Positions 13,298-29,588 of a stretch of 35,337 nucleotides of DNA are shown one piece after another. A model generated the notes under the pieces. The model saw only the letters and a list, made by a program, of their open reading frames with translations. It was not told where the DNA came from and searched no databases. Origin of the DNA: Parasporobacterium sp. Its GTDB lineage: Bacteria > Bacillota > Clostridia > Lachnospirales > Lachnospiraceae. Within the stretch, counting starts at the first letter, position 1. Each line of letters starts with the position of its first letter. The DNA is taken from NCBI GenBank assembly GCA_017510065.1, contig JAFWOB010000103.1:1-35337 (forward strand). Direction: 5' to 3'. Both the position numbers and the translations under genes were made by a program.

Positions 13298-13465
13298 GTA
13301 AAACCTCTCTGTGTTGTTGATTTCAGGTTGCTGCGTTTATCATAGCGCAAAAACCTTAATCACGCCATAGCCTGTATGCGTTTTGCATCACAGACATGAT
13401 TGGACTTGTTATGTCGCGGTCAGAACCAGAGCATCTGCCGCAGACTGGAATTGCCCTGCCTGTTA

Positions 13466-13474
13466 TGGTATAGT
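13466..13474 (+). promoter_or_regulatory. Candidate extended -10 promoter for the CAT-like gene
   Basis: TGGTATAGT fits the extended -10 pattern TGnTATAAT with one mismatch, 34 bp before the start codon. No convincing -35 is at the right distance, which extended -10 promoters can tolerate. Confidence 0.4.
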
Positions 13475-13508
13475 TCCATTGACCATGACAAAAGGAGACT
13501 GCGGAAAC

Positions 13509-14189
13509 ATGACAGAAAACTTTTACGATCGGGAGACCAATTCCATCGAATGGATCGACCTGGAAACCTGGGAGCGCAAAGATCTGTTCGCTGCCTATCT
13601 GGGGACGGATCTTCCGTATATTATCATCACGGCTAATGTCGATGTGACAAAACCGCTGAGATATGCAAAGAAAAAAGGACTTTCCTTTAATCTTGTGATG
13701 GTGTATCTGTGCGTAAAGGCGATGGATCAGATCCCGAATTACCGTTACCGGTTCATAGATGGCAAGCCTTTTGTGATCGATCATACCCGCCCGGTCATCA
13801 ATCATATCATTCCGGGGCAGGAACTCTTTGTTATGGCGGAGGGAAAGTGGCCGTGTGATAGTATTGAAGAATTCTGCCTTGAAACTCATAAGCGGCTGGA
13901 AACAGCCGGTCCTGACAGCCGGGAGATCATGAGACAGGGCAAGCTGGATCTTGTCAATTTCACAGCCCTCCCCTGGGTGCAGTACACCGGTTTTATCCGG
14001 ACCATCAAGACGGACGGTGTGGACAATGCTCCCAAAATGTCCTTCGGCAAATACTTTGAAGATCCGGCTGTGTCGGGGAGAATATGGATGCCTATTTCCA
14101 GTCAGACGCATCACGGTCTGATGGACGGCTGGCACGTAGGACGGTTTTATGAAATGCTGCAGAAAGCCTGTAATGAAATAGAGGAATAA
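13509..14189 (+). CDS. Chloramphenicol-acetyltransferase-like acyltransferase
   Basis: A 226-residue protein with the CAT fold, which uses acetyl-CoA to acetylate a hydroxyl. The catalytic segment THHGLMDGWHVGRFYEML matches the CAT motif HHxxxDGxHV: H202 is the catalytic base and D206 the structural aspartate. The N-terminal WIDLETWERKDLFAAY and FNLVMVYLCVKAMDQIPNYRYR are also family-typical. Length is close to classical CAT (about 215). Many CAT-like genes in gut Firmicutes are not proven resistance genes, and substrate-pocket residues cannot be judged here, so resistance is not claimed. The start at 13509 was chosen because AAGGAGA lies upstream within ribosome-binding range. It ends 3 bp before the methyltransferase gene, so the two form an operon. 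Confidence 0.88.
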   Translation: MTENFYDRETNSIEWIDLETWERKDLFAAYLGTDLPYIIITANVDVTKPLRYAKKKGLSFNLVMVYLCVKAMDQIPNYRYRFIDGKPFVIDHTRPVINHIIPGQELFVMAEGKWPCDSIEEFCLETHKRLETAGPDSREIMRQGKLDLVNFTALPWVQYTGFIRTIKTDGVDNAPKMSFGKYFEDPAVSGRIWMPISSQTHHGLMDGWHVGRFYEMLQKACNEIEE

Positions 14190-17448: not shown

Positions 17449-17480
17449 TTGTGTATGTAAGGAACAGGAGGAAAAATGTA

Positions 17481-17990
17481 ATGAGCGACTGCTGCTGCAA
17501 AGATGAAAACATGAAAGCTCTTGATAAAGTGCTGGATGAATGCGGTCATGACGCAGGCAATCTGATCACGATCCTTCAGAATGCCCAGGAGATCTACGGG
17601 TATCTGCCTTCGGAGATCATTTACTATGTGGCCTCCCAGACCGGAATCTCGCCGGCCAGAGTCATGGGCGTAGCTACCTTTTATTCCCAGTTCCGTCTGG
17701 AGCCAGTCGGAAAATACCTTATCATGCTGTGCAAAGGTACGGCATGTCATGTCAATGGTTCCGATACACTGGAAGATGTGATATGCAGTGAATTGGGAAT
17801 CTCCAATGGTCAGACCACCAGCGACGGGATCTTTTCCCTGAAGACTGTGGCCTGCCTGGGATGCTGCTCTCTGTCACCCGTGATGATGATCAATGATGAA
17901 GTGTTCGGCCTTCTGACTTCGGATAAGGTGATCGGTATCCTGAATGATTTTCGGAAGAAAGCACAGGAAGAAGGAGGTACACAGGCATGA
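17481..17990 (+). CDS. NuoE/HydC-like [2Fe-2S] subunit of an NAD(P)-linked flavin/iron-sulfur complex
   Basis: A 169-residue thioredoxin-like [2Fe-2S] protein. The cluster ligands are C84 and C89 (CKGTACH, C-x4-C) plus C125 and C129 (CLGCC, C-x3-C). The family core is ILQNAQEIYGYLPSEII followed by GVATFYSQFRLEPVGKY. The N-terminus carries an extra CCC (residues 4-6) outside the family core. In soluble NuoEF-type enzymes this subunit binds next to the FMN subunit as an electron side-branch; in bifurcating HydABC-type complexes it is the HydC equivalent. The start at 17481 has AGGAGG 8 nt upstream; ATG at 17475 runs straight into a stop. It overlaps the next gene by 4 bp, so the two are translationally coupled. 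Confidence 0.93.
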   Translation: MSDCCCKDENMKALDKVLDECGHDAGNLITILQNAQEIYGYLPSEIIYYVASQTGISPARVMGVATFYSQFRLEPVGKYLIMLCKGTACHVNGSDTLEDVICSELGISNGQTTSDGIFSLKTVACLGCCSLSPVMMINDEVFGLLTSDKVIGILNDFRKKAQEEGGTQA

Positions 17991-19741
17991 TGAAGATCGT
18001 TGTGGGACAGGGATCCTGTGGGATTGCGGCAGGAGCCGGAAAAACATATGAAGCCATAAAAGCCTGTATGACAGAACAGGAACCGTTTGAACTGGGCAGC
18101 ACCGGATGCAACGGCATGTGTTTTCTGGAGCCGATCGTAGATATTTACGATGGACATAAACTTGTAAAAAGGCTTGTTAACGTATCTGCAGATAAGGCTG
18201 AGGCTGTTGTCAGCGCGGTGCGGGCAGGGGATCTGTCCGGTCTGTCGGAAATGGTGATCAAACCGGAAGATGAAGAGTTCCTGACTCAGCAGACCAGGAT
18301 CGCGCTGCGCAACTGCGGCATCATCGATCCGGAAGACATCGCTTCCTATAAAGAGCGGGACGGTTACAAGGCGTTGGAGAAGGTTCTTACCTCTATGACC
18401 CCGGAAGAAGTTATCGAAGAGATCAAGGTTTCCGGACTTGCAGGCCGCGGCGGCGCAGGATTTCCTACCTGGTTCAAATGGAATGCAGCCAGACAGTCGC
18501 CGGGAGAAGAAAAATACCTGATCTGCAATGCAGATGAAGGCGATCCCGGTGCTTTCATGGACAGAGCTGTCATTGAGTCCGATCCGCATAACCTGATCGA
18601 GGGCATGATGATCGCAGCCTACGCCATCGGGGCTTCCGAGGCGATCGTCTATGTACGTGCAGAATATCCGCTGGCGATCATCCATCTGAATGAAGCCATC
18701 CGGCAGGCACGGGAGGCTGGTTATATCGGACAGAATATCCTGGGAACCGGATTTTCCTGTGAATTCCGGTATATGGCAGGTGCCGGAGCCTTTGTATGCG
18801 GTGAAGAGACGGCCCTCATTGAATCCCTGGAAGGAAAACGGGGAATGCCCAGACTCAAACCACCGTTCCCCGCAGCAGCAGGCTATAAGATGAAGCCTTC
18901 CAATATCAATAACGTAGAGACCTTTGCCAACGTGGCATGGATCATCCTGAACGGCGGGGAGAAATTCGCCGCCATGGGTACGGAAAACAGCAAAGGAACC
19001 AAGGTGTTTGCCCTGACCGGCAAGATCCGCCGGGGCGGCCTGGTGGAAATCCCCATGGGACAGACTCTGCGCCATGTTATTTTTGATATCGGCGGCGGAA
19101 TCCGTGAAGATAAGAAGATCAAGGCTGTTCAGCTGGGCGGTCCTTCCGGCGGCTGTATTCCGGAACATTTGCTGGATACCGTGATCGATTACAAGGCATT
19201 AAGTGCCACCGGCGCCATCATGGGATCCGGCGGTATGGTTGTCATGGATGAAAATACCTGTATGGTGGGTATGGCGAAGTTCTTCCTTGATTTTACTTCC
19301 AAAGAGTCCTGCGGCAAATGCGTTCACTGCAGGATCGGCACCAGAAGAATGCTGGAGATCCTGAACCGCATCGTGGAAGGTAATGGTAAAGATGGCGATA
19401 TCGAGCTTCTGGAAGAACTGTGCTATTCCATCAAGGACGGCGCTTTATGCGGACTGGGACAGACCGCTCCGAATCCGGTGTTGACTACGATCCGGTATTT
19501 CCGGGATGAATACGAAGCGCATATCGGTGAGAAGAGATGTCCTGCTGCAGAGTGCAGAGATCTTCTGATGTATTATATTGACCCTGATAAATGTAAAGGA
19601 TGCACTGCCTGTGCAAGAAAATGTCCTGCGGATGCGATCAGCGGCACCGTAAAATCTGCTCACAGCATTGATCCTGAGAAATGCATCAAATGCGGCACCT
19701 GCAAGAGTACCTGTAAGTTTGATGCCATTTATGTGAAATAG
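17987..19741 (+). CDS. NuoF/HydB-like FMN and NAD(H)-binding subunit with extra ferredoxin domains
   Basis: A 584-residue flavoprotein in three parts. Residues 1-90 are a thioredoxin-like [2Fe-2S] domain (C11, C41, C45). Residues about 105-500 are the NuoF core: NAD loop GRGGAGFP (153-160), FMN segment NADEGDPGAF (181-190), an SLBB region, and the [4Fe-4S] ligands C442, C445, C448 with C488. The segment H512...C518-x4-C523 resembles the metal-binding knuckle of HydB-type proteins. The C-terminus is a 2[4Fe-4S] ferredoxin: C536, C539, C542, C546 and C566, C569, C572, C576. This is the HydB/HndC/BfuB layout rather than complex I NuoF. Known relatives exchange electrons between NADH and ferredoxin at a bifurcating FMN. 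It overlaps the previous gene by 4 bp and sits 14 bp before the third subunit. Confidence 0.94.
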   Translation: MMKIVVGQGSCGIAAGAGKTYEAIKACMTEQEPFELGSTGCNGMCFLEPIVDIYDGHKLVKRLVNVSADKAEAVVSAVRAGDLSGLSEMVIKPEDEEFLTQQTRIALRNCGIIDPEDIASYKERDGYKALEKVLTSMTPEEVIEEIKVSGLAGRGGAGFPTWFKWNAARQSPGEEKYLICNADEGDPGAFMDRAVIESDPHNLIEGMMIAAYAIGASEAIVYVRAEYPLAIIHLNEAIRQAREAGYIGQNILGTGFSCEFRYMAGAGAFVCGEETALIESLEGKRGMPRLKPPFPAAAGYKMKPSNINNVETFANVAWIILNGGEKFAAMGTENSKGTKVFALTGKIRRGGLVEIPMGQTLRHVIFDIGGGIREDKKIKAVQLGGPSGGCIPEHLLDTVIDYKALSATGAIMGSGGMVVMDENTCMVGMAKFFLDFTSKESCGKCVHCRIGTRRMLEILNRIVEGNGKDGDIELLEELCYSIKDGALCGLGQTAPNPVLTTIRYFRDEYEAHIGEKRCPAAECRDLLMYYIDPDKCKGCTACARKCPADAISGTVKSAHSIDPEKCIKCGTCKSTCKFDAIYVK

Positions 19742-19755
19742 GGAGGTGAGAGTAA

Positions 19756-21933
19756 ATGGAACAGATCAAGATCACGATTAACGGAAAAGAATGTATCGGC
19801 AATAAAGGTGACTCCATTTTAAAGATCGCGACGGCAAACGGCGTTTACATCCCTACCCTGTGTCATTTTGAAGGCGTTAAGGACTATGGCGCCTGCGGAA
19901 TCTGTCTTGTGGAAGGGGAAGGCCTGCCGAAACTGATGCGGGCGTGTTCCACAGCCGCAGCAGACGGATGGGTACTCAGCACGGAAACCGACCGGGTGAA
20001 AAAAGCCCGTAAGATCGCTCTGGAACTGCTGATGAGCGATCATGACGGAGACTGTGTGGGGCCATGTTCCCTGAACTGCCCGGCAGGTACCGATGCCCAG
20101 GGATATATCAAGCAGATCGCCCTGGGAAATGATTATCAGGCAGTGAAGATCGTAAAAGAGACCAATCCGCTTCCGGCATCCATCGGAAGGGTATGCCCTC
20201 ATCCCTGTGAAAAGAACTGCCGCAGGAGATTTGTAGAGCAGCCTATGAGCATCGCCTATATGAAATATTTTGCTGCGGACAGGGATCTGCATCTTACCAG
20301 CCCTTATGACGGCGTGACAGACGGAACGGTCTTCCGCGGCGGTATGGACGGAAAATGCGGCATATCGATCCCTCCGACGTACAAACCGGAAGTGAAAAAG
20401 GCGACCGGCAAAAAGGTGGCGGTCATAGGAGGTGGTCCCGGCGGACTGACTGCAGCGTTCTTCCTGAGAAGAAACGGCCATGAAGTGACAGTCTATGACG
20501 CAATGCCGGAAATGGGCGGTATGCTCCGCTACGGTATTCCGGAATACCGGCTTCCCAAGAGGATCCTGCACCGGGAGATCGCGGAGATCGCCAATCTGGG
20601 CGTCAAGCTGGTCAATAATGTCAGAATCGGAGGAGAGGCTTCACCGGCAGCATTTACCGGAGCAGAAGTGATCTCACTGGAGTCTTTGCGTAAGGACTAT
20701 GATGCGGTTGTGATCGCGGTAGGCGCCTGGAAGAGTTCTTCCGTGGGATGTCCTGGTGAGGATGCGGAAGGAGTCCTGGGCGGCATCGATTTCCTGCGGG
20801 ATGTAGCACTGGCAGTACAGCCTTACGATCCGGAGGGAACGCTTTCCCGTCCTATCAATATCGGCAAAAAAGTCGCCATCGTAGGTGGCGGCAATACTGC
20901 CATGGACGCCTGCAGAACGGCTGTCCGTCTGGGAGCAGAAGACGTCTATGTCATTTACCGGAGAACCAGAAATGAGATGCCGGCAGATGAGGAAGAGATA
21001 GATGATGCCATCGAAGAAGGCGTTACTTTCAAGTTCCTGACCAATCCTGCCGAGATCATTTCTGAAAACGGGAAAGTAAAGAGGATCAAACTGCAGGTTA
21101 TGGAACTGGGTGAGCCGGATGCTTCGGGACGACGCAGCCCTGTGCCGGTGGAAGGCAAATTTGAGATCCTGGATGTAGATACCGTTATTGCGGCGATTGG
21201 ACAGAAACTGGATCCGACAGGATTTGAAGAGCTGGAGTTTAACCGCAAGGGAATCATTACGGCCGATGAGGCTACTTTCCGGACCAATCTGGAAGGCGTC
21301 TTTGCCATCGGTGATGCCACCAACAAAGGCGCGGATATCGCTATAGCCGCCATCGGCGAAGGCAATAAAGCAGCCCTGGTGGTGGATTCCTATCTGAACG
21401 GAGAGATCATCCCCTACAAGAAGCCTTTTGTTTCCGAGCGGGATGAAGAAACGGTAAAGAAGGAACTGGCAGAAAGAGAAAAAGCAGCCCGCGTCATCAT
21501 GCCGAAGAGAACCCCGGAAGAGAGAAGACATGATTTCAAAGAGGTCAATCTGGGATTCGCTGAGGAAGACGTCCGCAAGGAAGCGGCGCGCTGCCTTGAG
21601 TGCGGCTGCCATGACTATGAAGACTGCCGTCTGATCTTTACCGCCCGTAGGGAAGAGATCTGCCCGGCAAGACTGAAAGGACAGCATCATCCGGGATTCG
21701 TGGAGCAGAAACTGGTGAGCATTGAGCGCAATCAGAATAAGTGCATCCTGTGTAACCTTTGTATAAGAACCTGTGATGAAAATGCAAAGAAAGGCATCCT
21801 GGGACTGGTAGGCCGAGGATTTACTTCCGTGATCAAACCGGAATTCAATGATCCTTCCGTGATCGCCGGATGCAAGGACTGCCATCTGTGCGCAGATGCC
21901 TGCCCGACCGGCGCGCTGAAGATCATCGGCTGA
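19756..21933 (+). CDS. Fusion of NuoG-type [2Fe-2S], GltD/NfnB-type FAD-NADPH and ferredoxin domains (Stn-like third subunit)
   Basis: A 725-residue electron-transfer fusion. Residues 1-80 are a plant-type [2Fe-2S] domain (C36, C47, C50, C64). Residues 93-158 are a Cys-rich linker: H96, C100, C104, C108, then C147, C151, C155 in VCPHPCEKNCRR, as in GltD/NfnB [4Fe-4S] sites. Residues 219-550 are the GltD-type module: FAD loop VIGGGPGGL (223-231), NADPH-type loop VGGGNTAMDA (376-385), and VFAIGDA (515-521). Residues 613-636 hold another Cys set (C613, C616, C618, C624, C636). The C-terminus has two [4Fe-4S] motifs: C663, C666, C669, C673 and C706, C709, C712, C716. No H-cluster motif is present, so it is not a hydrogenase. 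With the two preceding genes the arrangement matches the Sporomusa-type bifurcating transhydrogenase; this is inferred from architecture. GGGAGGTGAG precedes the start. Confidence 0.9.
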   Translation: MEQIKITINGKECIGNKGDSILKIATANGVYIPTLCHFEGVKDYGACGICLVEGEGLPKLMRACSTAAADGWVLSTETDRVKKARKIALELLMSDHDGDCVGPCSLNCPAGTDAQGYIKQIALGNDYQAVKIVKETNPLPASIGRVCPHPCEKNCRRRFVEQPMSIAYMKYFAADRDLHLTSPYDGVTDGTVFRGGMDGKCGISIPPTYKPEVKKATGKKVAVIGGGPGGLTAAFFLRRNGHEVTVYDAMPEMGGMLRYGIPEYRLPKRILHREIAEIANLGVKLVNNVRIGGEASPAAFTGAEVISLESLRKDYDAVVIAVGAWKSSSVGCPGEDAEGVLGGIDFLRDVALAVQPYDPEGTLSRPINIGKKVAIVGGGNTAMDACRTAVRLGAEDVYVIYRRTRNEMPADEEEIDDAIEEGVTFKFLTNPAEIISENGKVKRIKLQVMELGEPDASGRRSPVPVEGKFEILDVDTVIAAIGQKLDPTGFEELEFNRKGIITADEATFRTNLEGVFAIGDATNKGADIAIAAIGEGNKAALVVDSYLNGEIIPYKKPFVSERDEETVKKELAEREKAARVIMPKRTPEERRHDFKEVNLGFAEEDVRKEAARCLECGCHDYEDCRLIFTARREEICPARLKGQHHPGFVEQKLVSIERNQNKCILCNLCIRTCDENAKKGILGLVGRGFTSVIKPEFNDPSVIAGCKDCHLCADACPTGALKIIG

Positions 21934-21990
21934 AAAGGATCCCGTTTATACAGCCTGTGAATGATTTTTGTCCAAAATCGGTAAAAAAAT

Positions 21991-22041
21991 ACAACTTACG
22001 AACGGTAATTCATATAGAGATCGTTCGTAAGTTGTTTTTTT
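21991..22041. terminator. Bidirectional terminator between the Stn-like operon and the HAD gene
   Basis: A 14-bp perfect stem (ACAACTTACGAACG / CGTTCGTAAGTTGT) flanked by an A-run on the left and a seven-T run on the right, so it can act on both convergent transcripts. The loop is unusually long at 17 nt. Confidence 0.87.
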
Positions 22042-22083
22042 GATCAGCCGGGACAGCCCTATAACAGCATGAGGCAGATATCA

Positions 22084-27125: not shown

Positions 27126-27263
27126 GTGGAAATTCTGTGAAAGATTGGCTAGAGTGTGTATGGAAAAAGACTGATAAAAATACTACAATACCCCAGAATT
27201 CAAAGAAAAGACTTCATAAAATACCTTTCCGGCATCACCCGGAAAAGAACAGGAGATGACAAA

Positions 27264-28283
27264 ATGGGAGTTAGAGTAGCAATCAATGGTTTTGGACGTA
27301 TCGGAAGACTGGCTTTCAGAAGAATGTTCGGCGATGCAGAGTATCAGATCGTTGCCATCAACGACCTGACCAGCCCGGAATTTCTGGCATACCTGCTGAA
27401 GTACGACTCAACACAGGGACGTTATGCAAAGGCTGATGCTGTATCTTATACAGATCATTCCATCATTGTTGACGGCTGTGAGATCGAGATCTACAAAGAA
27501 GCAGACGCATCCAAGCTTCCCTGGAAAGATCTTGACATTGACGTAGTCCTGGAGTGCACAGGTTTTTATACCTCCAAGGCAAAAGCACAGGCTCATATTG
27601 ATGCCGGCGCTAAGAAGGTTATCATTTCCGCACCTGCAGGCAATGATCTTCCGACCATCGTTTACAATACAAATCATCAGAACCTGACAAAAGATGATGA
27701 CATCATCTCTGCAGCGTCCTGTACAACAAACTGCCTGGCCCCGATGGCAAAGGCTCTGAATGACCTGGCTCCGATCGAGTCCGGCATCATGGTAACGATC
27801 CATGCTTATACCGGCGACCAGATGATCCTTGACGGACCGCACAGAAAAGGCGACAAGAGAAGAGGCCGTGCAGCAGCAGTCAATATCGTTCCGAACTCCA
27901 CCGGCGCAGCAAAGGCTATCGGCCTGGTTATCCCGGAACTGAACGGCAAACTGATCGGCGCAGCACAGAGAGTTCCTGTAGCAACAGGTTCCACCACGAT
28001 CCTTACCGCTGTTGTGAACGGTACTGTAACAGTTGATGAGATCAATGCACAGATGAAGAAGTGCAGCAATGAATCTTTCGGTTACACCGAGGATCAGATC
28101 GTTTCCAGCGATATCGTTGGCATGAACTTTGCATCTCTGTTTGATGCAACCCAGACAAGCGTTATCCCGTGCGGAGACGGCAAGACTGAGGTTCAGGTTG
28201 TTTCCTGGTATGACAACGAGAGCTCCTTCACAGCCAATATGTGCAGGACCATCAGATATTTCTCTGAGCTTATCAAGAAATAA
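27264..28283 (+). CDS. gapA: Glyceraldehyde-3-phosphate dehydrogenase (type I)
   Basis: A 339-residue NAD-dependent glycolytic enzyme forming 1,3-bisphosphoglycerate. The N-terminal Rossmann motif is [14 protein letters not shown], with D34 following the second strand as an NAD-type residue. The catalytic site is [12 protein letters not shown] with C153 and H180. The C-terminal WYDNESSF is standard. The start at 27264 has AGGAG 8 nt upstream; the frame is open further upstream but without family similarity. Codon choice is strongly biased to a restricted set, as expected for a highly expressed gene. It is followed by a strong terminator, so it is probably monocistronic. Confidence 0.97.
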
Positions 28284-28302
28284 TTAAGTCCAGACAAAAT
28301 CC

Positions 28303-28340
28303 AACCGGAGTTTATGCCATCCGGCATAAACTCCGGTTTT
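28303..28340 (+). terminator. Rho-independent terminator of gapA
   Basis: A perfect 16-bp stem (AACCGGAGTTTATGCC and its complement) with an ATCC loop and a short T-run (28337-28340), 20 bp after the stop codon. Confidence 0.85.
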
Positions 28341-28351
28341 AACCACTCGCT

Positions 28352-28393
28352 AAAGAGGGGTCGTTGCAAATGGTTGCGGCGGTCTCTTTTTTT
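28352..28393 (+). terminator. Possible second terminator or leader hairpin upstream of buk
   Basis: AAAGAGG (28352-28358) pairs with TCTCTTT (28383-28389), with an inner GTCGT/GCGGC stem using G-U pairs, followed by TTTT. It could back up the gapA terminator or belong to a small transcript. No reliable promoter was found between it and buk. Confidence 0.4.
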
Positions 28394-28481
28394 ACGTTAA
28401 GGACTATCATTTCTCGGGACGATAGTGTAGAATTGTATAAAAATTAAAGCAGTCAGTTTTATCATATTCAGGGAGGAAAAA

Positions 28482-29588
28482 ATGGGAGTTTACAAGATTT
28501 TAACCATCAATCCGGGGTCCACATCAACCAAGATCGCCGTTTATAAAGGCGAGGAAAAACTGTTTTCCGAGAATGTGTCCCACGCAGCAGACGAACTTGC
28601 AAAATATAAAACCATTTCCGATCAGCTTCCCTTCCGTCTGGGCATGATCCGTGACCTGATCAAGGCAAACGGCGTGGATCTGTCGGATCTGGATGCTGTT
28701 GTAGGAAGAGGCGGCGGCCTTATGGCGGTTGACGGCGGCGTATACGGGATCAACGATGTCCTGTACGATCACGCTGTACGCGGGGCCAACGGTGTACAGC
28801 ATCCGGCACAGCTGGGACCGCAGATCGCCAAGGCATTTGCGGACGAATACGGCTGCAAGGCATTTGTTGTTAATCCGCCGGATACGGATGAGCTGATCCC
28901 GGAAGCCAGAATGACCGGTATCAAAGGCGTATTCAGAAATGTACATCTTCATGCGCTGAATCAGAAGGAAACGGCGATCCAGCATGCCAAGAAGATGGGC
29001 AAAAAGTATGAAGACTGCAATTTTGTCGTAGCTCATATCGGCGGCGGTACTTCCATCGCTGCCCACAGAAAGGGCAAAATGATCGACGGCAATGACATTG
29101 TAGGCGGCGACGGCCCCATGACACCGACCCGCTGCGGCAGCCTTCCGGCTTCGGAGATCATCAAATATGTGGCAGACACTGATATCAAGACCGCCAAGGC
29201 ACTGTGCACCAAGACAGGCGGATTTGTCAGCCTCCTGGGAACCTCCGACGCGATCGAAGTATCTGACAAGGCGGCAGCCGGCGACAAGTTTGCGGCTCTT
29301 TGCTGGGACACCATGATCTTCCAGATCATCAAGCAGATCGGCGCTATGGCAGCGATCCTTCACGGGGAAGTAGACGGCATCCTGTTAGGCGGCGGTATGG
29401 TCCACAACAAAGGACTGGTACAGAAGATCACGGAAGCGGTCTCCTTCATTGCTCCGGTCACTGCTTATCCGGGTGAATTTGAAATGGAAGCCATGGCTTC
29501 CGGAGCAGCACGTGTTCTGGACGGCGAGGAAGAACTGAAGGAATACACAGGACTTCTGAACTGGGACAAGGCAGATTTCATGGGTTGA
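28482..29588 (+). CDS. buk: Butyrate kinase
   Basis: A 368-residue ASKHA-fold kinase converting butyryl-phosphate and ADP to butyrate and ATP. Signatures: ILTINPGSTSTKIAVYKG (phosphate-1 loop), the segment GRGGGLMAVDGGVY, VNPPDTDELIPEARMTGI, VAHIGGGTSIAAH (phosphate-2) and GDGPMTPTRCGSLP, and C-terminal ILLGGGMVHN (adenosine loop). The family is shared with branched-chain fatty-acid kinases, so isobutyrate or isovalerate is also possible. Phosphotransbutyrylase (ptb), usually adjacent, is not here: gapA lies upstream and an unrelated regulator is convergent. The start has AGGGAGG upstream. Confidence 0.95.
   Translation: MGVYKILTINPGSTSTKIAVYKGEEKLFSENVSHAADELAKYKTISDQLPFRLGMIRDLIKANGVDLSDLDAVVGRGGGLMAVDGGVYGINDVLYDHAVRGANGVQHPAQLGPQIAKAFADEYGCKAFVVNPPDTDELIPEARMTGIKGVFRNVHLHALNQKETAIQHAKKMGKKYEDCNFVVAHIGGGTSIAAHRKGKMIDGNDIVGGDGPMTPTRCGSLPASEIIKYVADTDIKTAKALCTKTGGFVSLLGTSDAIEVSDKAAAGDKFAALCWDTMIFQIIKQIGAMAAILHGEVDGILLGGGMVHNKGLVQKITEAVSFIAPVTAYPGEFEMEAMASGAARVLDGEEELKEYTGLLNWDKADFMG

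Follow-up and report, generated by a model that had tools for sequence, protein, structure and literature searches.

The electron-bifurcating transhydrogenase StnABC of Sporomusa ovata contains a StnC subunit of 1172 residues, which carries six [4Fe-4S] clusters and, from residue 683 onward, an FdhF-like domain (Kumar 2023, PMC10482914). The FdhF domain is reported as partial in Thermococcus sibiricus and T. litoralis and is not stated to be family-defining, while the StnC proteins in Table 1 of Kremp 2020 (PMC7483475) measure 891–1241 residues. Here we describe a stnABC operon in a 35,337-nucleotide contig of Parasporobacterium sp. (Lachnospiraceae; GCA_017510065.1, JAFWOB010000103.1), the whole of which we call the window. 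Judged by its sequence, the operon is a member of the Stn/Nfn-Bfu (Type 1) family, in a variant without the FdhF domain, and its product is very probably a soluble, electron-bifurcating Stn-type transhydrogenase. StnC ends at residue 725, straight after a dicluster domain, and the FdhF-like C-terminal domain (~490 residues, one [4Fe-4S] site) is absent. This absence is the unusual part of the operon and was overlooked in an earlier reading of the same DNA, hereafter the original prediction.

The three genes form a compact unit, all on the + strand, with products of 169, 584 and 725 residues in the list of open reading frames (ORFs):

17481–17990, + strand: stnA, BfuC/HydC/NuoE-like, 169 residues, thioredoxin-like [2Fe-2S] subunit (PF01257, E 1e-50; best PDB matches 9bov_C and 8oh5_A)
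17987–19741, + strand: stnB, BfuB/HydB/NuoF-like, 584 residues, predicted FMN/NAD(H) and ferredoxin-side bifurcating subunit (PF01512, PF10589, Fer4; best PDB matches 8oh5_B with E 5e-258, 9bov_B and 9n5u_B)
19756–21933, + strand: stnC, BfuA-like, 725 residues, predicted subunit for NADP(H)/FAD input, lacking the FdhF domain (Pfam, PDB matches, alignment, fold model)

The ORF coordinates place a 4-bp overlap of stnA and stnB at 17987–17990 and a 14-bp gap between stnB and stnC at 19742–19755, as the original prediction had read; the stnA ORF is open from 17451, and its 169 residues are counted from the ATG at 17481. Pfam bears out the further description of NuoE-like and HydB-like subunits followed by a 725-residue fusion of [2Fe-2S], GltD-type FAD and dicluster modules, and finds no match to the H-cluster domain PF02906 in StnC, which separates the protein from its counterpart in HydABC. 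A BfuA with a [2Fe-2S] domain and an NfnB/GltD-like FAD-NADP(H) domain but no H-cluster is the arrangement of Type 1 Bfu enzymes.

Pfam assigns to StnC PF13510 [2Fe-2S] (residues 2–78), PF14691 Fer4_20 (102–177), PF07992 FAD/NAD(P) (219–536) and a ferredoxin-like dicluster (659–721). The features of the protein, with conservation given for 14 aligned StnC, are the following:

19759–19989, + strand: [2Fe-2S] domain, residues 2–78, with C36, C47, C50 and C64 (PF13510, E 2e-15; Cys invariant in 14/14)
20041–20286, + strand: HxxxCxxxCxxxCP motif (H96, C100, C104, C108) and FAD-proximal C147, C151, C155 and K170, residues 96–177 (invariant in 14/14)
20410–21363, + strand: GltD/NfnB-like FAD and NADP(H) module, residues 219–536, with GGGNTA at 377 (PF07992, E 3e-40)
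21592–21627, + strand: CxxCxC-x5-C motif (C613, C616, C618, C624; invariant in 14/14)
21721–21918, + strand: 2[4Fe-4S] dicluster, residues 656–721, with the protein end just after it (Pfam; eight Cys invariant in 14/14)

Specifically, K170 aligns with S. ovata K170 (counted by eye) and R265 is the equivalent of S. ovata R239, and both are invariant in the 14 StnC. In S. ovata both residues matter for activity, and K170 is common to the StnC proteins described to date (Kumar 2023, PMC10482914). The motifs HxxxCxxxCxxxCP and CxxCxCxxxxC have been named for StnC (Kremp 2020, PMC7483475); the latter has four x in print, against five both in the window and in S. ovata StnC. The original prediction listed the Cys of 613–636 as having no assigned cluster. 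Those at 613–624 are the motif already described and probably hold one of the StnC chain clusters, and C636 is not invariant among the 14 StnC. The GxGxxA motif of StnC and the BfuB core hallmarks of Stn are retained, and a count of motifs suggests that the window's StnC keeps five [4Fe-4S] clusters.

The absence of the FdhF-like domain from the window's StnC is inherited. Short StnC, in frames of 680–725 residues, occur in 10 of the 14 genomes of the genus, the copy in G002 being cut by a contig end. Among 200 genomes of the family, taken as one per genus, seven have StnC beside stnA and stnB; six of these lack the FdhF domain (frames of 684–737 residues, locus L049 retaining a relic tail) and one is long, after six weaker matches with frames of 572–582 residues were left out as presumably hydrogenase-type. 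At the level of the order, StnC matches at E 1e-25 occur in 39 of 392 genomes; by frame length alone, 11 fall at 681–766 residues and 28 at 822–1289. Of the 41 long StnC, 37 were compared for their tails of 380 residues or more; conservation of Cys in their FdhF region is limited to four places, each with 36/37, and therefore one cluster site lies there, presumably Kumar's cluster C1. In S. ovata, Cys changes at C1 or C2 blocked formation of the StnC tetramer (Kumar 2023, PMC10482914).

We built a StnC tree from 91 cores of 97 loci, six having been dropped for matches shorter than 560 residues; nine of the 91 rows carry no length label. In this tree, which is of the quick type, without bootstrap or inferred root and with a long-branch warning for outlying short rows, the window's StnC falls in a clade of 29 rows (Shimodaira–Hasegawa-like approximate likelihood ratio test 100) nested inside the long forms. 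The clade consists of 28 short StnC whose end lies on the contig (one a 603-residue frame with a mechanically chosen start) and one cut by a contig end, and the end point of the 28 is nearly constant, at 0–16 residues past the match. Its sister is a five-row clade (support for the union 82, not starred) whose StnC have tails of 64–67 residues; aligned to the long tails, these relics correspond to the first part of the FdhF domain, from which the Cys have disappeared except for one in a single row. Eight other short StnC are placed elsewhere, several on long branches. A single clade for all short and relic StnC was rejected by the approximately unbiased test (p 2.8e-10, 41 rows versus 41); therefore StnC came to lack FdhF on more than one occasion, or the lack in part predates the gain of the domain. 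No description of a StnC without FdhF was found in the literature searched, supplements not covered, and as far as can be checked in those sources it is a new form of Stn/Nfn-Bfu.

Matches to solved structures agree with this assignment. By sequence, the first PDB matches of StnC are 9bov_A, 8oh5_C and 9n5u_A; the entry titles name 9bov and 8oh5 as electron bifurcating and 9n5u as NfnABC. An AlphaFold2 model of StnC built from 14 sequences (predicted local distance difference test, pLDDT, 75.3; predicted template modelling score 0.71) retrieves 9bov_A, 8oh5_C, 9n5u_A and 9n5v_A first in a Foldseek search, with TMq of 0.74, 0.73 and 0.70 for the first three. Clustering of the third protein with other enzymes, which the original prediction named as a possible refutation, is thus not what we see: its best solved matches are the StnC/NfnA chains of transhydrogenase complexes. 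A glutamate-synthase reading was rejected as well, in that the top NCBIfam names are GltD-like yet all lie under their curated cut-offs among the 25 of 77 matches listed.

StnA is a NuoE-type [2Fe-2S] protein, as expected of a Bfu-family BfuC, and its PDB ranking has 9bov_C and 8oh5_A first and the HydC chains of 8a6t and 7p5h above 9n5u_C. StnB contains PF01512, PF10589 and Fer4 in two stretches, which cover the 51K, NADH_4Fe-4S and Fer4 members of the BfuB set, and its best PDB chains come from the same three complexes as those of StnC. No SLBB domain of that set is among the StnB Pfam matches listed at E 0.001. The InterPro numbers were matched to the BfuB domain names (51K, NADH_4Fe-4S, SLBB, ferredoxin) on an assignment that we take to be correct. 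Two further features of StnB bear on its function:

19571–19729, + strand: C-terminal 2[4Fe-4S] domain, residues 529–581, presumed ferredoxin site (Fer4/Fer4_10)
19373–19375, + strand: V463, occupying the position of C476, the fifth B2 ligand (Cys/Thr) in NiFe-Bfu (alignment)

Of the eight Cys in the C-terminal domain, seven are invariant in 82/82 StnB and C539 is present in 81/82. Cluster B2 of NiFe-Bfu is a five-ligand [2Fe-2S] cluster bound by C438, C476, H525, C531 and C536; HydB homologues that do not bifurcate reportedly lack its His, and the fifth ligand is described as Cys or Thr (PMC9304861). In StnB, the corresponding C425, H512, C518 and C523 are invariant in 82/82, while the fifth position is T in 48, V in 21 (the window included), C in 10 and I, A and S in one each. 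The same position is variable in long StnABC too, as well as in the HydB proteins encoded in the window's genome, where one likewise has Val. Zn was assigned at a linker site of S. ovata StnB (Kumar 2023, PMC10482914), which would be the same place as B2, and the NiFe-Bfu structure paper notes a similar conflict with the Zn assigned in T. maritima HydABC (PMC8880783). Because four ligands are invariant and the fifth varies, a CCCH metal site with four ligands is, for these enzymes at any rate, a better fit to the StnB pattern than a cluster with five, and Val at 463 bears on the dispute between Zn and [2Fe-2S] at B2. StnB also has a clade-specific Cys pair, C258 (18758–18760) and C479 (19421–19423). 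Both are present in 33/82 StnB, C258 never without C479; of the 33 carriers, 31 belong to the short or relic forms, and the remaining two are a long form and a row unlabelled for length. A contact or a new redox feature is possible.

The genome distribution of stn is consistent with a transhydrogenase role. We called NfnB as a match to TIGR01316 over its cut-off, scoring the top candidates per genome in the set of 200 family genomes. NfnB is present in 179/200, in 0/7 genomes with stn versus 179/193 without (Fisher p 5.1e-8), and rescoring the seven with every candidate again gave 0/7. All eight NfnB matches examined lie next to an NfnA-like gene (seven by PF10418, the eighth by eye). Within the genus, NfnB over cut-off was found in 0/14 genomes, as was glucose-6-phosphate dehydrogenase (0/14; the control was positive in 9/14 known genomes), and the exclusion pattern fits Stn as an NADPH route there. 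The pattern extends one reported for acetogens to 200 genomes of one family. Of the nfnAB, rnf and hydABC genes that the original prediction proposed to look for, the window's genome has an Rnf-type operon (named by look and a PF01512 match) and HydABC-type operons on contigs C118 and C135, and canonical nfnB was not found. Sequence, fold, key residues and distribution together support the Stn-type assignment that it made.

The original prediction had placed the operon in a non-acetogenic, butyrate-type fermenter. This setting is supported in part: a butyrate kinase gene, the only butyrate gene sought, is in the window, and the genome to which the window belongs (90% complete) yielded no acetyl-CoA synthase. 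Acetyl-CoA synthase is present, however, in 6/14 genus genomes, of which three also have stn (G003, G007, G008) and three lack it (G009, G011, G012); therefore Stn is not tied to acetogenesis here. Its occurrence outside acetogens, presented as notable, had already been reported (Kremp 2020, Table 1, PMC7483475).

We infer activity, direction, cluster occupancy and assembly of the window's StnABC as follows. By homology with the enzyme of Kumar 2023, NADP(H) would be handled at the StnC FAD, and electrons would travel singly along the clusters of StnC until they reach the StnB FMN. StnA and StnB would couple NAD(H), at FMN, to ferredoxin at the StnB C-terminus, with gating by movement of StnA, again transferred by homology from Kumar 2023. 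The likely cellular direction is confurcation, from NADH and reduced ferredoxin to NADPH for biosynthesis, and Stn would take the place of NfnAB in this lineage. The core would function without the FdhF domain and its dead-end cluster, and the complex would assemble without the FdhF contacts of the StnC tetramer.

Several observations weigh against a bifurcating Stn. In S. ovata, no functional complex could be purified after deletion of the FdhF domain, and C114 affects the FAD-proximal cluster, C114A halving activity (Kumar 2023, PMC10482914); this position is Ala in the window. The StnC model is of medium confidence, with loops 96–106, 616–620 and 683–693 below pLDDT 50, and its domain arrangement is only roughly modelled, since the root-mean-square deviation is ~9 Å despite TMq of 0.70–0.74. 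By tblastn, the StnC loci L065, L100, L106 and L128 have no stnA/stnB in 2.8–5 kb upstream, and L065 falls in the window's clade, where its near relatives L064, L067 and L068 do have stnB. Both stn and NfnB over cut-off are missing from four of the 14 genus genomes (G001, G009, G011, G012), and in three of the seven family genomes with stn, single GltD-like frames of 446–506 residues that score below the NfnB cut-off, in G066 (one), G104 (three) and G149 (one), could be divergent NfnB. The exclusion test is adjusted for kinship by one genome per genus only. Such a complex might instead be a non-bifurcating NADPH:NAD+/ferredoxin or NADPH:acceptor oxidoreductase, its core uncoupled by loss of FdhF and an altered B2, that is, a simple transhydrogenase or an Nso-like sulfur reductase. 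We regard this as unlikely. The failed S. ovata deletion and V463 speak for it, as does the close relationship to NsoC of Thermococcus, named for sulfur reduction (Kremp 2020, PMC7483475). On the other hand, the residues said to distinguish bifurcating BfuB from its non-bifurcating counterparts are invariant in 82/82 StnB, the variability at 463 is shared with long StnABC and HydB of the same genome, and mutual exclusion of stn and NfnB fits a common function. Selection on the stn genes also looks purifying: the ratio of nonsynonymous to synonymous substitution rates (dN/dS) is 0.02–0.10 in the 12 comparisons, out of 15, for which dS was computable, and of these only those with G002 (0.02–0.04) are without strong saturation.

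A role of StnABC as accessory subunits that feed electrons into a larger enzyme with its catalytic subunit elsewhere, such as a hydrogenase or formate dehydrogenase, appears very improbable. NuoEF-like modules are used by many enzymes (PMC9304861), a StnABC-like cluster of Dehalobacteriia occurs together with a formate dehydrogenase gene (PMC10327494), and the window's genome has five PF02906 [FeFe]-hydrogenase genes, all on other contigs. StnC, however, has its own NADP(H)/FAD module, and three of the five hydrogenase genes have partners of their own, two following HydC- and HydB-like genes and the third a HydB-like gene. Furthermore, we compared neighbour families at 54 loci chosen from the 97 (the clade of the window with 29, long forms with 20, relic forms with five), using frames of at least 100 residues up to 6 kb upstream and 3.5 kb downstream of stnC and families in at least four loci. 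The regular neighbours are stnA and stnB only; a DUF1292 gene recurs in four genus members, and five further recurrent families are taken, by look, for antisense or out-of-frame readings of stn genes. The neighbouring catalytic subunit that the original prediction had set as a second possible refutation therefore did not appear. That stnC is truncated or in decay, or that its shortness is an artefact of assembly, is hardly credible: StnC does stop just past the dicluster motif where long StnC continue for ~490 residues, but the near-identical end point in 28 short StnC contradicts such a reading, and the terminator after stnC and low dN/dS speak against it too.

With the bifurcating Stn preferred, we give even chances to the broader proposal that FdhF was lost from Stn more than once and that the window holds a minimal Stn with one [4Fe-4S] fewer and no FdhF-mediated tetramer, FdhF and its cluster being an assembly relic; StnB C258/C479 may have accompanied the loss. 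The exact role of StnC clusters C1 and C2 has been called not clearly understood, since removing them or FdhF broke the enzyme (Kumar 2023, PMC10482914). If the proposal is true, bifurcation without FdhF would place the domain and cluster outside the mechanism. A lineage naturally without FdhF offers a direct test of whether FdhF serves assembly alone, as well as a smaller enzyme to study.

Signals at both ends of the operon are consistent with one transcription unit of three genes:

17466–17471, + strand: ribosome-binding site AGGAGG of stnA, read in the sequence, with 9-nt spacing to the ATG at 17481
21990–22041, + strand: terminator hairpin and U-run 3′ of stnC (RNA folding of 21985–22045)

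The folded region has −24.4 kcal/mol and a z of −7.3, an energy equally low in 0/200 shuffles; a simple terminator scan lists nothing after stnC, the hairpin loop exceeding its length limit. The upstream neighbour of stnA encodes a DUF1292 protein, and the gene downstream of stnC, on the opposite strand, looks like a HAD-type phosphatase. The arrangement is not due to chance, since we read stnABC in nine more genomes of the genus and six of other family genera, some genes being cut by contig ends. A scan of genome contigs lists 80 of 590 rows, and no prevalence is derived from it. Genes for type I glyceraldehyde-3-phosphate dehydrogenase (GAPDH) and butyrate kinase lie at 27156–29588 of the window, ~5 kb past the operon; the same two genes directly follow stnC in G004 (L038), as does a GAPDH gene in G010 (L039). 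A chloramphenicol-acetyltransferase-fold protein at 13383–14189 scores 97.9 bits against a CatA model cut-off of 270, and no resistance is claimed.

The window's genome has further modular redox loci. A 968-residue protein on contig C199 (L029:3913–6819) is GltD-like in its C-terminal part, and Pfam matches nothing at E 1e-8 in its ~320 N-terminal residues; an NfnAB fusion, suggested by length, was rejected, no NfnA-type domain being listed at that threshold. On C218 (L034), a HydC-like gene cut by the contig start and a HydB-like gene accompany a 260-residue BfuA-like protein without H-cluster, and an aldehyde ferredoxin oxidoreductase gene lies ~4 kb downstream with opposite-strand genes in between, possibly a tungsten-type Wor-Bfu system. 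An [FeFe]-hydrogenase gene on C119 (L027:2033–5607) overlaps a gene for a 610-residue NADH_4Fe-4S and GltD-like fusion, a possible NADP(H)-linked hydrogenase. A 713-residue protein on C14 (L030:4993–8240) has the StnC-like domains reordered ([2Fe-2S], dicluster, Fer4_20, GltD) and lies beside a 368-residue NADH_4Fe-4S protein; similar frames of ~715 residues are present in other genus genomes.

Among known systems, S. ovata StnABC (8oh5/8oh9; Kremp 2020, Kumar 2023) shares with the window the A-B-C gene order, the catalytic and most cluster motifs and the K170/R239 equivalents, with 46% identity between the StnC proteins (Foldseek alignment). It differs in the FdhF-like domain, which takes part in the StnC tetramer, and in C114, and the window's StnC has three insertions relative to it, of ~26 residues near 180–206 and 11 each near 295–305 and 352–362. 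Caldicellulosiruptor saccharolyticus NfnABC (9bov/9bp5) supplies the top PDB match of both StnC and StnA, but its StnC homologue is a long form of 1178 residues. Thermococcus sibiricus Nfn-Bfu/NfnABC (9n5u; Schut 2022) is likewise a Type 1 Bfu with a GltD-like BfuA, for which its authors showed bifurcation; its BfuA has 963 residues, a partial FdhF (per Kumar 2023) and lacks several dicluster Cys that the window keeps. The Dehalobacteriia cluster has NuoE- and NuoF-like subunits and a third subunit with a GltD domain, which may be a short form already drawn (PMC10327494), and differs in sitting with a formate dehydrogenase gene. HydABC, the group A6 [FeFe]-hydrogenase, has the same bifurcating core, with HydC and HydB equivalent to StnA and StnB, joined to an H-cluster domain that is missing from StnC. 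NfnAB has the GltD-like NADP(H) module in common with the window, and the same net reaction is expected; in the window, however, the conserved neighbours are stnA and stnB with no NfnA partner, Lys replaces Glu at the proximal cluster, and bifurcation is assigned to the FMN core and not to the FAD of the GltD domain.

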